A DNA stretch of 27,441 bases from positions 1 to 27,441 of the IMG/VR virus record IMGVR_UViG_3300025101_000140; one strand, 5' to 3'. Shown here piece after piece: positions 2,688-25,432 of this stretch. The notes below the pieces were generated by a model, which saw only the letters and a program-made list of their open reading frames with translations, made no database searches and was not told the origin of the DNA. The first letter of the stretch is position 1, and every line of letters starts with the position of its first letter. The position numbers and the translations under genes are program-made. This DNA is from a virus.

Positions 2688-2714
2688 TTAACTTAAAATG
2701 ATTGGGGCGACACA

Positions 2715-4367
2715 ATGGATAACAATAACTTTGTTAAGTATCACATAGCTTGTGATAAGTGTGGGAGTAGTGACGCAAGAAGTGTAAATAAAAATGGTAG
2801 TTCTTACTGTTTCTCTTGCAACACTTACTTCCCACCAGAACAAACTAATATAGATGAGGGCGACACAATGGGCATACAAGCAGTTCAAACAAAACCAATA
2901 ATAATAGAAAATAACGTAGGTACTTTTAGTGCTATCGGCGATAGATGTATCAACGAAGACACAGTAAAAAAGTATGGGGTCAAGGTTATCAGCGACGCAA
3001 GTGGCACGATAGACAGACACATCTACCCATACTATGACTCGACTGGTTCTCTTTTAGCTACCAAGACTAGGTATGTGAAGAATAAACAATTCTCGATAAA
3101 GGGTTCAACCTCTGACTCTGGATTGTTCGGTCAGCAGTTATACAATGGTGGTAAATATGTTACCATAACAGAGGGTGAGATTGATGCGTTATCAGTCTAT
3201 CAATTACTTGGTTCGAAGTATGCAGTAGTTAGTATCAAGAATGGTGTTGCGTCTGCCCTCAAAGATATTAAGAAAAGCTATGATTGGTTAGACCAATTCG
3301 ATAACATTGTTATTAACTTTGATAATGATGATGTCGGTAGAGAAGCAAGTAAGAAAGTTGCAGAGTTGTTCGCCCCATCAAAGGTTAAGATATTAAAATT
3401 ACCAGAAGGATACAAAGACGCTAACGATTTACTTAAAGCTAATAAGTATCAAGAGTATATTAAATCATGGTGGAATGCACCTACCTATGCACCAGACGGT
3501 ATCATTAAAGGTGAGTCACTACTAGAAGAAGTACTTGCTCCAGTCGTAAGGTCAACAGTTAATTATGGTTGGCAAGGACTAGACGAGATGACTTATGGTA
3601 TTCGTAGTGGTGAGTTGGTTACATTTACTGCAGGTACAGGACTTGGTAAAACTTCTATCATAAAAGAATTAGTATACAATCTATTCAAGAATACAGAAGA
3701 AAAGATTGGTATGATTATGCTTGAAGAAAGTCCTAAGATTACCGCACTAGATATCATGAGTGTAGAAGCTAATCTACCTTTGCGTAGACCAGACATTCAC
3801 ATGAGTGATGAGGACAAGAGAAAATATTTTGATGCTACTGTTGGTACTGGTAGGTTCTACTTCTATAAACACTTTGGTTCTAATTCAGTAGATAACATTG
3901 TATCTAGAGTTAGGTATATGGCTAAGGCTTTAGATTGTAGATATATTGTACTCGACCATGTTAGTATGGTCGTATCATCTCAAGAGTATGGAGATGAAAG
4001 AAAGGCACTTGATGAGATTATGACAAAGCTCAGAACACTTGTTGAAGAAACAGATATAGCTTTGGTTCTTATCTCTCACTTGCGTAGACCAGATGGTAAG
4101 GGACATGAAGAAGGGGCAGCAACTTCTCTATCACAACTTAGAGGTTCGGCTTCTATTGGTCAGTTATCTGATATGGTTATTGGTCTTGAAAGAGATGCAC
4201 AGAATGATAGTCCTACTGTAAGGAATACAACTTGCGTAAGAGTATTAAAGAATAGATTCATAGGTATGACTGGCCCAGCTACATATCTATACTATGACAA
4301 AGAAACTGGTAGACTACACGAGACTGAGAAACCAACTGGTGAAGAGTTTGAAGATGAAACATTATAA
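2715..4367 (+). CDS. Primase-helicase, T7 gp4-like
   Basis: A 550-residue bifunctional replication enzyme (T7 gp4 has 566). The N-terminal zinc-binding primase domain has Cys13, Cys16, Cys32 and Cys35. A TOPRIM domain follows with Glu153 in TITEGEIDAL and the acidic cluster INFDNDDVGRE near 200-210. The helicase domain begins around 265, with Walker A AGTGLGKT at 306-313 and later motifs including IVLDHVSMV and LISHLRRPDG. It would synthesise RNA primers and unwind DNA at the fork as a ring. The ribosome site is GGGCGA with CACA before the ATG, and the same 14 bases recur inside the gene before Met52. It is followed 14 bases later by the polymerase. Confidence 0.93.
   Translation: MDNNNFVKYHIACDKCGSSDARSVNKNGSSYCFSCNTYFPPEQTNIDEGDTMGIQAVQTKPIIIENNVGTFSAIGDRCINEDTVKKYGVKVISDASGTIDRHIYPYYDSTGSLLATKTRYVKNKQFSIKGSTSDSGLFGQQLYNGGKYVTITEGEIDALSVYQLLGSKYAVVSIKNGVASALKDIKKSYDWLDQFDNIVINFDNDDVGREASKKVAELFAPSKVKILKLPEGYKDANDLLKANKYQEYIKSWWNAPTYAPDGIIKGESLLEEVLAPVVRSTVNYGWQGLDEMTYGIRSGELVTFTAGTGLGKTSIIKELVYNLFKNTEEKIGMIMLEESPKITALDIMSVEANLPLRRPDIHMSDEDKRKYFDATVGTGRFYFYKHFGSNSVDNIVSRVRYMAKALDCRYIVLDHVSMVVSSQEYGDERKALDEIMTKLRTLVEETDIALVLISHLRRPDGKGHEEGAATSLSQLRGSASIGQLSDMVIGLERDAQNDSPTVRNTTCVRVLKNRFIGMTGPATYLYYDKETGRLHETEKPTGEEFEDETL
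2856..2870 (+). promoter_or_regulatory. Probable internal translation start in primase-helicase
   Basis: GAGGG (2856-2860) lies seven bases before an in-frame ATG (2868-2870, Met52). The 14-mer GGGCGACACAATGG at 2858-2871 exactly repeats that at the gene's own start (2705-2718). Initiation here would give a 499-residue protein lacking the zinc domain, like T7 gp4B. Confidence 0.65.
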
Positions 4368-4381
4368 CAAGGGCGAAACTA

Positions 4382-6112
4382 ATGAGAGTATTTTTAGATG
4401 TTGAAACGACACACATTGTCAATAACAGATTACCCGACAGGATATTTCTTATTGTATGTAAGAGTGAGAAAGGTATTACATACTTTAGAGAGAATGAAAT
4501 GGATAAGTTTGTTTCTTATATTGATAACTACAATGAGTTTGTTGGACATAACATTATAGGATTTGATGCACCAGTTATTAAAAAGATTGTTAATATTGAC
4601 CTACATGATAAAGGTAAAGTCATTGATACTTTAGTTTTATCGAGACTGTTCGACCCAGTTAGAGAGGGTGGACATTCTTTAAAATCTTTTGGAGAGAGAT
4701 TAAAGTTTGGTAAGCTAGACTTTAAAGACTTCTCTGAATACTCTGATGAGATGCTTGAGTATTGCATCAGAGATGTAGAGCTTACGGAAAAAGTTCTTGG
4801 TTATTTGATTAGATACAACCCAGACTTTTCTCGTGAGGCGATTAGACTAGAGCATGAGACATCTAGGATAATCACACAACAAGAGAACAATGGTTTTCTT
4901 TTTGATGTAACGAAGGCAGACCTTCTGTTAGGTAAGTTAAGAGAGAAGATAAATGAAATTGAACAGAAGGTTAGAGAACGATTTACACCACTGCCAACCT
5001 TCGTCAAGATAGTTAAACCTCGTTATCGTAAAGACGGTTCTCTGAGTACGGTTGGACTGAATAGTCTGGGACAGGGGTGGGTCAATGTTATGGGAGATTT
5101 TTCTCTCATAGAAATGAAAGAGTTTAATCTTGGTAGTCGACAACAGATTGCCAGACATCTCCGACACTTTGGTTGGAAGCCGACTAAGTTTACTGAACAC
5201 GGACAACCAATAGTAGATGAGAAAGTTCTACAAGGTATTACAAATATACCAGAAGCAGAACTTATCAAAGAGTTTCTACTACTGCAGAAACGAATTGCTC
5301 AAGTTGAATCTTGGGTAGAAGCAGTAGCAGAAGACGGGAGAGTACACGGAAGAGTGATAACCAATGGTGCTATCACTGGTAGAATGAGCCACCAGTCGCC
5401 CAATATGGCTCAAGTTCCTGCAGTGTATTCTCCCTACGGAAAAGAATGCAGAGAACTTTGGGTAGTTCCAGAAGGCTATAAACTAGTGGGAGTAGATGCT
5501 TCTGGTCTTGAGTTAAGAATATTATCCCACTACATGAACGATAAGGAATATATAGATGCTATCATTAATGGAGATATACACACAACAAATCAAAATCTTG
5601 CAGGTCTTAGCAGTAGAGACCAAGCAAAGACTTTCATCTATGCCTTCATTTATGGGGCAGGTGACGAAAAACTCGGAGCTATCTGCGGCGGGTCTAGAAA
5701 TCATGGGAAGGCGATTAAAGATAGATTTCTCAGAGGTACTCCAGCCCTTGCAAACTTTAGAAAGCGAGTGGACAAAGCTACTGGAAAAGGTTGGCTCAGA
5801 GGAATCGACGGAAGAAGACTCAAAATCAGAAACAGACACTCCGCCCTCAACACCTTAATACAAGGTGGTGGTGCGATAGTTATGAAGAAAGCTTTGATTC
5901 TTTTAGATGAACAAGTTAATAAACATAAACTAAATGCAAGACCTGTTGCTAATGTTCACGATGAGTTTCAATATGAAGTACTGGAATCTCAAGCAGAAGA
6001 CTTTGGTAATCTTGCAGTTGATTCTATTGTCAATGCAGGTAAAGAACTAGGAATTAGATGTCCTTTAAATGGAGAATATAAATATGGAAACAACTGGCAA
6101 GAAACACACTAA
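4382..6112 (+). CDS. DNA polymerase, family A, T7 gp5-like
   Basis: A 576-residue replicative polymerase. The 3'-5' exonuclease domain has Asp6 and Glu8 in FLDVETT, Asp62 in GHNIIGFDAP, and YCIRDVELTEK with Asp131. Polymerase motif A is VDASGLELRIL (Asp372), motif B is QAKTFIYAFIYGAG, motif C is VHDEFQYEV (Asp527). The residue matching E. coli Pol I position 762 is Tyr420, as in T7 and many lytic phages. T7 gp5 has 704 residues, and the missing length may include the thioredoxin-binding insert, so processivity may work differently. The ribosome site is GGGCGA again. Its end overlaps the exonuclease gene by 29 bases. Confidence 0.93.
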   Translation: MRVFLDVETTHIVNNRLPDRIFLIVCKSEKGITYFRENEMDKFVSYIDNYNEFVGHNIIGFDAPVIKKIVNIDLHDKGKVIDTLVLSRLFDPVREGGHSLKSFGERLKFGKLDFKDFSEYSDEMLEYCIRDVELTEKVLGYLIRYNPDFSREAIRLEHETSRIITQQENNGFLFDVTKADLLLGKLREKINEIEQKVRERFTPLPTFVKIVKPRYRKDGSLSTVGLNSLGQGWVNVMGDFSLIEMKEFNLGSRQQIARHLRHFGWKPTKFTEHGQPIVDEKVLQGITNIPEAELIKEFLLLQKRIAQVESWVEAVAEDGRVHGRVITNGAITGRMSHQSPNMAQVPAVYSPYGKECRELWVVPEGYKLVGVDASGLELRILSHYMNDKEYIDAIINGDIHTTNQNLAGLSSRDQAKTFIYAFIYGAGDEKLGAICGGSRNHGKAIKDRFLRGTPALANFRKRVDKATGKGWLRGIDGRRLKIRNRHSALNTLIQGGGAIVMKKALILLDEQVNKHKLNARPVANVHDEFQYEVLESQAEDFGNLAVDSIVNAGKELGIRCPLNGEYKYGNNWQETH

Positions 6113-13237: not shown

Positions 13238-16200
13238 TAATTATTTTCCTTAAGTTTAGTTACTAATTGTTTGACGTATCCACCTTTGTTATACCTTAAT
13301 GATTCTCCAGGTCTAGAAGCAGATTGTCTTTTTATTTGTTGTTTATAGTTAAATGGTTCTTTATATATCATAAATGGAATACCAACTCTATCTAAAGCTG
13401 CTCTTATTGTTGGTAGTGGAATTACTTTATAAGCATTTCTAACTGCTTTATCGTAATCTCCAGTTATTGCCCCCACTGTTGTTTGACCTATATCATTTAT
13501 AATACTAGCTCCTGGAAAAAATTCTAATACATTTTCAGAACCATAACCAACAGTTTGATTTAATACACTAGTAGGTAGCCATCCTAGATTACCAGATAAA
13601 TTTAAAGCATGTCCAAGCCACTTATTAGTATCTGTTTCTACATCAGTTTTAATTTCACCGTATCTTGCAAATTCTCTTAAATTATAAATAGCACCATAAA
13701 CAGTTAAAGCTCCTAACATTCTAAATAGTTGAGCTTGTTCGCTACTTTCTGCTCTTGCTATAAGAGCATTTGTTTGTGAAGATTTTGCTTGTGCCCAAGA
13801 ACTAAACTGACCTAGTATTCTTAACATAGGATTTCTTGTTTGCGTAAAAAGTAATCTGTTACCAACAGTTGGTATAATAGCATCTCTATCAGCAGCCTTT
13901 GAACCTATTTTATTTAATATTGATTTAGCTACATCATCACCAAGAGCATCATCAATATTTCTAAAAGAACCTATTTTAAGTATGTCATCAAAAGAATTAA
14001 TACCTAAAGTACTTAAATGTTTTATGTCTTCAAGAGTAACTCTATCTATATTTTGTAACTCATCTAAAGATTTAGCATTATTTTGTTGTGCTTTTATAGC
14101 TAAAGCTCTAGCTGTTTTGTGACCGTCAACTAAACCTACATTAAAAGCATATCTTCTAGCAAGGCTGGTTATACCTTCTAATCCAATATACTTAAAAAAC
14201 TTTTCATTAGACTTACCAATTAAATCTAAGTATCTAGTGTAGCCACCTTGCTCAGCACCAGTAAACATATCTTTCATTAAAGTTCTAGTTAAACCTTCAT
14301 CTGCTATTGCTAAAGCTTCTGCTCCACCTTTTTCGTTTTTAGCTCTTAGTGAAGTTCTATAAATTCCTTGTAACGAAGAACCAAACCATCTACTGTTTTG
14401 CATAGGTTGAATTAAATCACCAAGGTTAGCTATAGTAACTTTATCCATCATAGTAAAGTTACCAAGAGTAGAAAGAGTAGCTATAATATTTCTTTCAATT
14501 TGATTACCAACTCTTCCGTGTCTACCAAAGAAAGAATTAACAGCATTGACCATGGCTTCTTTATCACCATCTAATTTTGTTTTAGCAGAGAAAGGTAACT
14601 CATTTACTTTTTTAACACCAAATTCTTTTTTGTATTGGTCATTAAGTCTTGTAAAATATCCTTTTAATAACTGTCCTTCAGCTCCAAATTTTCTAGCAAA
14701 CTCTACAGACTTGACACTATTTCTTACTAAATCAGAAAGAACAGCACCCACATCATTTATTAAATATTTTTCCATTATTTTTTCTACATCATCATAAGAA
14801 CCTTGAAGTATTCTTTCTTTATTAATGTGTTCACTGAGAGGTAAAATAAATTTAGATTTAGATTTTGTGTCTGTTAATTGTGATGCAGTTTTATCTAACA
14901 GTTGTCTTTCAAACGAAGCTGTTTGTCCTTCAAAATATTTTTCAGCGGCTTTTCTAGCTTCTGCTGGTGTTAATGGTTTTTTAGTATAAGCAGGAGTGCC
15001 ATCTCGATTTGTACCTATTCTAACTTTATTGTTTTTACTAGCATTTTTAGTTATATTTTGGAAAACTTTTCCCATATCTTTTAAAAAAGCTAACTTGCTT
15101 TCTTTAGATTGATTAACTATTGCAAAATTAATTTTTCTTGGAAAGTAATTAGCTATAATTTCAGACTCTTTTATACCTACTTGATTGTAGTAAGTTCTAA
15201 AACTTCCTAAAAAATCTTTTATTCTTACAGCTAAGTCTTGAGCTTCTTTTGAAAATGTTCCTTTTGCTCCTCTTACAATAGCAAGTGCTTCTTCTTGTTG
15301 TTGTAGTGTGGTGTTACGAAGCACACCTTTTTTACCATAAATAGCTCTTACAAACATTTGAAATGTTCTTTGACTAGAAGACTCTATGTTTTGTGAGTAT
15401 CCTGTAAGTCTAGCACCTTCTCCTTTTATAACTCTACCTAATGCATCTAGTCTTGGAGTAGTATCAAACTTACGAAACATCATATTAGAAAACTCATCTA
15501 CCACTCCACCCCTTGCAGAAAGTTTTGTAGATTGACTAGTTGCTAATCCTAAATTAAATCTATTAGCTCCTTCAAGTGCTCTTCCAAAATTACTTATATA
15601 ATTTCTTAATAGTTGAGTTGAGAATTCTATCTGAGTATTTTTTGGAATACCTTTTAACATTCCACTTCTTAGTGCTCTACTAGCAAGACCTAATGAAGCT
15701 CCAGCAGCTACATAATTTTGAAAACCATCCTCTGAATCAGCCCATATAACTCCAGCACCAGCTCCCATACCAGCACCTATAATCGGTCTTGTTAAATTAA
15801 TTGCTAAAGCTCTTCCTATTTGAGATTTTAAACCGCCTATAGCATGTATTTGTTCTATTACAGCTACATTATAATCATATTCTTTTTTGGCTTGTCGTTC
15901 TATTCCAAGTTTAATTTGTTTATTTAGTTCTCTAGCAACTGAATTTGGACCTAATTTTTTTATTCCTGCTTCTTTTAAAAGTTTTACCTCAGCTGAACTT
16001 AAATTTTTTATTAAAGTTTCTAAAGCTTTAGGGTCATCAGATTTTAAACCTAGTTCGTTTATTTTTTTTATTATATTTTGTTTAGGTAAAATAAAGTTAA
16101 GGTAGTTATTATCTTCTGCAGCAAGTTCTTTAAATAGTCTTTTTATTTCAGGAAGACTACTTATTTTTTTGACTTGGTCTAATTGTTTTTGTGATAAGTT

Positions 16201-23404: not shown

Positions 23405-25432
23405 TTATAATAAAGTTATAGCGTAACTTGCTAAATTTTTAATAGCAGTATATCTATCTTTTTCTGCAGATTGTTCATTACCTAAAGCTGCAATAGCTAC
23501 TTTAGCTTTTCTGTCTTGGTCATTTTCAGATGCTTCATATTCCCATTTAGCTGCATCTCTCATTTCTTGCCATAAAAAAGATAAACCTTGATTACTTAAA
23601 TTAAATGCATTCATAGCATTAGCTTGATTAACTGCATTTACACCTGCAGTATTAGCTGTATTTGTTTGTCTTCTCCATTGTACATTTGATTGCTCAATAG
23701 CCATAGAGTTTTGAATATTAAATTGGTCTTTTTGAAAAGCTAAATTAGAATTAAATTGGTCTATTTGTGTATTAAGTTGGTCAGTTAATTTTTCTGCTTC
23801 AAGTTGATTACCAGCATTAACTTGTGCTACTTGATTTTTTTGAGTAGCATTAAACTGAGACATAGCATCAGCACGAGCAGAATTTTGTTGAGCAATATTA
23901 GCTGCAAGATTAGCCATAAACTGGTCAGTTTGTGATTGACTAGTAGCATTAAATTGTCTAGATGCATTATTAGCAGCTTGGTCAGATAACATAGCTTGTT
24001 GTCTTTGTTGTGCAGTTAACATAGCAGCTTGTTGATTATTACTAAGATTAGTCATATCAAGATTTAAAAATGCTTGTGCATTTAATACTTGAGCTTGTTG
24101 TCTATTATTTAATTCAGACATATCCATAGCTGCAAGATTAGCTGCGTTTTGCATAACAGCTTGTTGAGAATTATTTAAATTTTGTAATCCAAATGTTCTA
24201 AATAAATTAGAGTTAGATATAACAGCTTGTTGTTTATTATTAAGATTAAGAACATCAAGACCTGCAATAGTTTGAGCATTAGCAAGAGCAACTGACTGTT
24301 TGTTATTCATTCCTGCTAACTCCATTTGTTGTTGGAGCTGTGCATTAGTTACTGCACCTTGTTGATTATTAGCAAGGTTTTGTAATCTTACTGCTTGTTG
24401 TTGTTGTGCAGTTGCAATAATAGATTGTTGTTGATTACCAAGATTAGCCATTAACAACTGTTGTGTATTACCTGCAGTTTCTATAGCAGCTTGTTGTTGA
24501 AATTGTGCACCAGTTAACTGTGCTTGAAATTGTTGTTGTTTAGTTAGTACTTCAGCTTGTTGTTGATTGTTAAGATTAGCCATAGCAGCTTGTTGTAACT
24601 GTGTAGCATTTGCTTGTGCAATAGGAATAGCACTTTGAATAATAGCATTTACTAAAGCTTCTCTACCAATAGAAGAACGACTCATTCCTCTTGATGCAAG
24701 ATTTTTATCTACAGCTTCAACTGCTCCTCTTGCCCATGTAGGAATAGTACCACTATCAATACCATCTAATAATTTTTCCATTTGACCTGACACAAGTGTA
24801 TCAGCAGGAAGTGAAGCTATCTGTGCATTAACCGCAGCAGGCTGACTAACAGTAGCAGCAGTTATAGCAGAAGGATTAGTTCCTATAGCTCTACTAATAT
24901 TACCTGGAAGACCTGCAGTTTGTGCAGTAATAGTTGCTTTCTGTCCAGTAATAGCAGCAGATAAAGTTTGCGGATTAACATTACCTTGTGCTGCTTGAGC
25001 AATAGCTTGAGATACAGGATTAGCTGTAGCAGCTGTAGCAGTACCAGTTACAGTTCCTCTTGTTTGAGCAGCTACTTGTCTATTTGCAGCTAGGTTAGCT
25101 TGTGTAGCTCCAGTTGCAGCAGTTGGAGTTCCTACAGTAGCAGCAGTCATTGTTCTTTGAGTTAAAGCACTAGGAGCACTTGTAGCTGATGTCTGTCCAG
25201 CTGCAGCTGTAATATTAGCAGGTGCTGTTACTTTTTGTTGTCCTGCAGTAGTAGTTCCAGCAGCTGTAGGAGATTTCATTAGTTCATTAGATTGAACAGT
25301 TTGCTTTGTATATTTTTGTTTAGCTGCTGCTGCTATCTTAGGGTCAGATACCTGGTCACTAAGATAATTAGGTATTGCTGTATTTTTTATCATCCCTCTA
25401 GCTCTGGATTCGCTTGGTATCTTACTTGCCAT
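23405..25432 (-). CDS. Ala/Gln-rich virion protein with nine 22-residue repeats
   Basis: A 675-residue protein. Residues about 55-215 are low-complexity Ala/Thr/Gln. A short ordered-looking section (about 215-285) follows, including LLDGIDSGTIPTWARG and RGMSRSSIGREALVNAI. Residues 287-484 are nine gap-free 22-residue units of the LNNxQQA type. The C-terminal 190 residues are Asn/Gln-rich helix with FNAT repeats and a charged end. I recall similar Gln/Asn-rich repeat proteins in the virion operons of marine podoviruses and myoviruses. It may be an internal core or ejected protein. The start follows the 47-residue gene by two bases, and it lies five bases before the HlyC-like gene. Confidence 0.68.
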   Translation of the reverse strand: MASKIPSESRARGMIKNTAIPNYLSDQVSDPKIAAAAKQKYTKQTVQSNELMKSPTAAGTTTAGQQKVTAPANITAAAGQTSATSAPSALTQRTMTAATVGTPTAATGATQANLAANRQVAAQTRGTVTGTATAATANPVSQAIAQAAQGNVNPQTLSAAITGQKATITAQTAGLPGNISRAIGTNPSAITAATVSQPAAVNAQIASLPADTLVSGQMEKLLDGIDSGTIPTWARGAVEAVDKNLASRGMSRSSIGREALVNAIIQSAIPIAQANATQLQQAAMANLNNQQQAEVLTKQQQFQAQLTGAQFQQQAAIETAGNTQQLLMANLGNQQQSIIATAQQQQAVRLQNLANNQQGAVTNAQLQQQMELAGMNNKQSVALANAQTIAGLDVLNLNNKQQAVISNSNLFRTFGLQNLNNSQQAVMQNAANLAAMDMSELNNRQQAQVLNAQAFLNLDMTNLSNNQQAAMLTAQQRQQAMLSDQAANNASRQFNATSQSQTDQFMANLAANIAQQNSARADAMSQFNATQKNQVAQVNAGNQLEAEKLTDQLNTQIDQFNSNLAFQKDQFNIQNSMAIEQSNVQWRRQTNTANTAGVNAVNQANAMNAFNLSNQGLSFLWQEMRDAAKWEYEASENDQDRKAKVAIAALGNEQSAEKDRYTAIKNLASYAITLL
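23981..24574 (-). repeat. Nine tandem 66-base coding repeats (22 residues each)
   Basis: Within the 675-residue protein, nine consecutive units of exactly 22 residues run from residue 287 to 484 without insertion or deletion. Well conserved units include LNNKQQAVISN, LNNSQQAVMQN and LNNRQQAQVLN at their starts, with Leu or Met at position 1, Asn at 2 or 3, Gln at 5-6 and Asn/Ala/Gln at 11-13. Protein similarity is higher than DNA identity, so the repeat is old and kept by selection. Confidence 0.8.

Follow-up and report, generated by a model that had tools for sequence, protein, structure and literature searches.

The primase-helicase gene and its probable second start

The window, that is the whole stretch of 27,441 nucleotides analysed here (IMGVR_UViG_3300025101_000140), comes from a Pelagibacter-type podophage to which HTVC115P is the nearest isolate, with megablast matches at 74.5% DNA identity in its replication genes. 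An open reading frame on its plus strand (2715..4367, as are all features below on that strand) codes for a primase-helicase of 550 amino acids and 61.4 kDa (phrog_239, E 1.9e-186; Toprim, DnaB_C and Helic-prim_T7_N), and its profile matches the structure of T7 gp4 (6n7i) along its length with an E value of 1.9e-157. Direct reading places a zinc-binding motif, CxxCGSSD...CFSC, at residues 13-35 (2751..2819), with cysteines that are invariant in the alignment, and a domain match to PF21268 at residues 69-130 (2919..3104) marks the start of the primase core fold. A single protein homologous to T7 gp4 thus carries the zinc motif, the primase core, Toprim and a DnaB-type helicase.

The 14-mer GGGCGACACAATGG occurs at 2705-2718 and again at 2858-2871, so that the first-pass annotation was right in placing exact copies at the gene start and 153 bases further on, in frame, at Met52. 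The two ATGs lie at 2715 and 2868, and no further copies with up to 3 mismatches were found elsewhere in the window. A first-order Markov model expects the 14-mer 3e-6 times per window strand, a post hoc figure, given that the window contains 39 different 14-mers that occur more than once; the repeats shown within 200 bp are mostly of low complexity or come from the gene at 23405-25432. The second ATG (2868..2870) is codon 52 and the sole in-frame ATG ahead of codon 292, and it sits between the zinc motif and the primase core, 17 residues ahead of PF21268. The start of the full-length form is preceded by the ribosome site GGGGCGACACA at 2704..2714 and the internal start by GAGGGCGACACA at 2856..2867, the latter read in the protein as EGDT (GAG GGC GAC ACA). 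Translation from Met52 would give a gp4B-like short form of 499 amino acids and 55.7 kDa (2868..4367), which lacks the zinc domain.

Strength of the internal site and comparison with T7

Duplex energies were calculated against the canonical anti-Shine-Dalgarno sequence, which was assumed for the host. The internal site is if anything the stronger (-6.1 vs -5.1 kcal/mol for the first), with GAGG placed 8 nt ahead of the ATG, a suitable spacing for a ribosome site, and it beats the best site in 76/76 control stretches of the primase-helicase gene. Across relatives 15/37 clusters reach -5 kcal/mol at the linker against 4.3 expected from the control stretches, an excess to be read as indicative since the clusters are related to each other. 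When synonymous codons were redrawn with the protein held fixed, there was no excess of Shine-Dalgarno strength in the window (p 0.93): random codons gave a site at least as strong in 93% of trials because Glu-Gly-Asp codons, however chosen, make a fair ribosome site. We therefore do not take strength alone as evidence. The codon choice is not tuned for Shine-Dalgarno pairing and what is conserved is the sequence GGGCGAC. A search for hairpins over both sites gave no consistent or strong RNA structure (unpaired probability 0.26-0.73).

The arrangement resembles that of T7 gene 4, a homologous primase-helicase gene that has, in the linker separating zinc motif from primase core, an in-frame internal start with a ribosome site of its own. 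Why T7 makes the short gp4B form has never been clear, since the long form alone supports growth. The internal start with its second ribosome site gives T7 forms of 63 and 56 kDa (PMC12593628), to be compared with the predicted 61.4 and 55.7 kDa in the window; the long form is required, but a mixture of long and short works better than the long form on its own and improves the coupling of unwinding to synthesis (reviewed in PMC12593628). The annotated gp4B start (11754 in the T7 record) is Met64, 12 residues before the PF21268 fold that begins at residue 76 of T7 gp4. With 17 residues in the window against 12 in T7 the second start therefore falls in the same linker. The two proteins are nevertheless only ~36% identical, their linker sequences are unlike, and T7 has a strong AGGAGG at both starts where both window starts carry GGGCGACACA; the window products, unlike those of T7, are predicted from sequence. 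The first-pass annotation had likened the internal start to that of gp4A/4B, and this is supported by the equivalent place, the ribosome site and the nucleotide-level conservation described below, from which we infer translation of a short form as probable.

Conservation of the internal site

Relatives of the locus were collected and the linker between zinc motif and primase core was read in each. Codons were counted in 24 non-redundant genes of the window clade and the HTVC115P clade, which are not independent, so that the counts overstate the evidence. The Gly codon at the internal site is GGC in 24/24 of these genes, where GGC makes up 11% of Gly codons, and among 37 invariant-Gly columns this is the sole one fixed for GGC. 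The Asp codon that follows is GAC in 23/23, the 24th gene (L072) having Glu (GAG), and the residue before the Gly varies between E, R and G with a codon that always ends in G (GAG, AGG or GGG). Nucleotides that are kept where amino acids vary are the signature of a site that is read in RNA or DNA.

Every window-clade locus that covers the place carries GAGGGCGAC at the internal site. In the relatives at 82-84% identity the linker is 6 residues longer than in the window and made of different residues, and GAGGGCGACACAATG is still intact. The HTVC115P clade (73%) mostly has AAAGGGGCGACATG, coding for Arg-Gly-Asp-Met. The internal start codon is ATG or TTG in relatives: three loci (L079, L080 and L083) have TTG in place of the ATG, and there the ribosome site is stronger, GGGGGCGACTTG. 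HTVC115P itself (MN698247; 73% identical) has GGGGCGACA at the first start and GGGGCGAC-ATG at the internal one, though its internal codon is Met56 and its linker differs. Counted over loci the GGCGA motif is found at the first start in 27/28, 39/41 and 32/57 of the window, HTVC115P and HTVC103P clades, and at the internal start in two of them, the window and HTVC115P clades (28/28 and 41/41). On the whole the relatives fit an internal start kept by selection. Set against the refuting condition of the first-pass annotation, relatives that lack the internal ATG or ribosome site, they give a mixed result: the site is retained in almost all near relatives, but is missing from HTVC103P, HTVC104P and their subclade, at 58% identity.

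Possible dual starts in other phage lineages

An internal start at the boundary of zinc motif and primase core is also found in HTVC031P and related pelagiviruses, which are ~45% identical to the window protein. It lies ~9 codons past the zinc motif, mostly behind (A)AGGAG, so that both the sequence of the ribosome site and its place differ from those in the window. The start codon varies as well: among 18 non-redundant genes it is ATG in 8, TTG in 7 (with 2 more shifted by one codon) and GTG in 1, and Leu or Val codons other than TTG and GTG were never found there, although TTG makes up 11.5% of Leu codons and GTG 8.9% of Val codons. Both the HTVC115P and the HTVC031P records annotate the long protein only. 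In the L030 group the internal site reads GAGGATAACATG.

The HTVC103P clade has an internal ATG with AAGGA in part of its tree, but the site has been lost in HTVC103P, HTVC104P and their neighbours. Between the major lineages gains and losses cannot be polarised because the tree has long branches. Most roseophage relatives are without a strong internal site. Cyanophages related to P-SSP7 (L046, L346-L425) have one Met 13-16 codons past the zinc motif in 64/64 distinct primase-helicases, mostly without a Shine-Dalgarno site, which is likewise missing from the main starts inspected; this Met may represent a dual start of the same sort that works independently of SD pairing. On the comparison of these sequences, a similar dual-start arrangement has probably been kept in several Pelagibacter phage lineages.

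Origin of the shared start sequence

The first-pass annotation had proposed that the start region itself was copied. The close relatives give no support to a recent copy: a near-identical locus (L011), L013, L014 and most relatives at 82-84% carry GGGCGACAACAATGG at the first start, one base longer, and at the internal site GGGCGAC(A/G)CAATG or GGGCGACGACATG, with GGGCGACACAATG in nearly all. The perfect 14-mer is thus probably a secondary one-base match that arose when the first site lost a base, added to a shared core, GGGCGAC, of greater age. We rejected a recent tandem duplication of the start region, since identity stops at 14 nt and L011 and L013-L014 differ between the sites, and also homogenisation between the starts, since loci with a one-base departure at the first start (L023, L068) show no matching change at the internal start.

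An old event, in which the first start region was copied locally into the linker, is doubtful. In both the window clade and the HTVC115P clade the two starts have GGGCGA(C) in common, and the core is rare at other starts; moreover the HTVC103P clade, which is more distant, has the first-start core GGGCGACA as well, so that the first start is probably the older of the two. However, the likeness ends at the ribosome site and ATGG with unrelated flanks, the spacing is unequal between the two sites in most relatives, and the exact 14-mer is limited to the nearest ones. That the 7-base core GGGCGAC was copied into the linker long ago is possible, though not provable.

GGGCGA at other gene starts

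The first-pass annotation had also noted a GGGCGA ribosome site at the DNA polymerase gene, which the start contexts bear out (4371..4376, ATG at 4382), and had taken the motif for the local style of ribosome site, which they contradict. GGGCGA occurs within 22 nt of 3/38 listed window starts, namely the primase, the internal primase and the polymerase start only, and in HTVC115P at the primase alone among 34 plus-strand CDS starts. These listings rule out GGGCGA as a genome-wide ribosome-site style in either phage.

Several observations concern the polymerase start and its surroundings. In the window (4371-4382), and past the primase stop in L072 and L015-L026, it has (G)GGCGA as at both primase starts, unlike other genes. 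In many HTVC115P relatives (L053, L060, L064) the polymerase seems to start at a GTG with GGGCGA just inside it (GTG GGC GAT), which looks like an upstream shift of the start across a former ribosome site. A small MDKEQLDKIEKKLDKLN-like ORF lies directly behind the primase stop, ahead of the polymerase, in some HTVC115P relatives (L056, L058). In L183, at about 15411-15428 (HTVC115P 45411-45428), GGGCGA is part of a terminator-like intergenic inverted repeat, GGGCGAGATTAATCGCCC.

The restricted distribution raises the possibility, in our judgement an unlikely one, that GGGCGAC is conserved, in addition to ribosome binding or in its place, as the binding site of a putative regulator such as a phage replication protein, and that such a regulator exerts joint translational control over both primase-helicase forms and the polymerase. 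The conservation exceeds what Shine-Dalgarno pairing needs, the codons used do not maximise that pairing, and among gene starts the motif is confined to the primase (two starts) and the polymerase. T4 replication proteins repress their own messages. A precedent for such control is the autogenous translational control by the phage ssDNA-binding protein described for T4 and RB69 in PMC535899. Against a regulator stand the single-base departures at one start (L023, L068) that are unmatched at the internal start, the HTVC115P polymerase start, which is without the motif, and the weak RNA structure of the sites noted above; no binding protein for GGGCGAC is known. If it were true, one regulator acting at three starts would set the ratio and the amount of replisome parts in these pelagiphages.

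That the 14-mer match is a codon coincidence, forced by a linker peptide EGDTM important to the protein, is very improbable: the same peptide does give a fair ribosome site under most codon choices, but the peptide varies (EGDTM, EGDAM, EGDDM, RGDM, RGENM, GGDL) while the nucleotides GGGCGA are kept, and GGC and GAC are fixed despite being minority codons.

Function and significance of a predicted short primase-helicase

Our preferred reading is that the primase-helicase gene has two translation starts of the T7 gp4A/gp4B type, to which we give a probability of about 0.85, internal translation being what we infer from the sequence. What we observe directly is the two sites, where they lie with respect to the domains, and their conservation at the nucleotide level. 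Ribosomes that initiate at 2715 would make the full protein with zinc domain, primase core and helicase, and those that bind the internal site would start at 2868 and make the 499-residue form without the zinc domain. By analogy with T7, and on that analogy alone, the predicted zinc-less form would unwind DNA without priming at specific sites. The two forms could form mixed hexamers or work in parallel, which would dilute the zinc domains, and as in T7 such a mixture might couple unwinding and synthesis better.

The dual start is new for these phages and of a kind already known from T7; among the titles and abstracts listed from an open-access library, none described such a start inside the primase gene of a pelagiphage. 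The comparative support from the pelagiphage sequences is stronger than the T7 comparison alone gives. An internal start kept across distant pelagiphages, with ATG, TTG and GTG exchanged for one another, is evidence from nature that it pays to retain the short form. A comparison is at hand in the HTVC103P lineage, in which the site has been lost, and phages of each type are available in culture.
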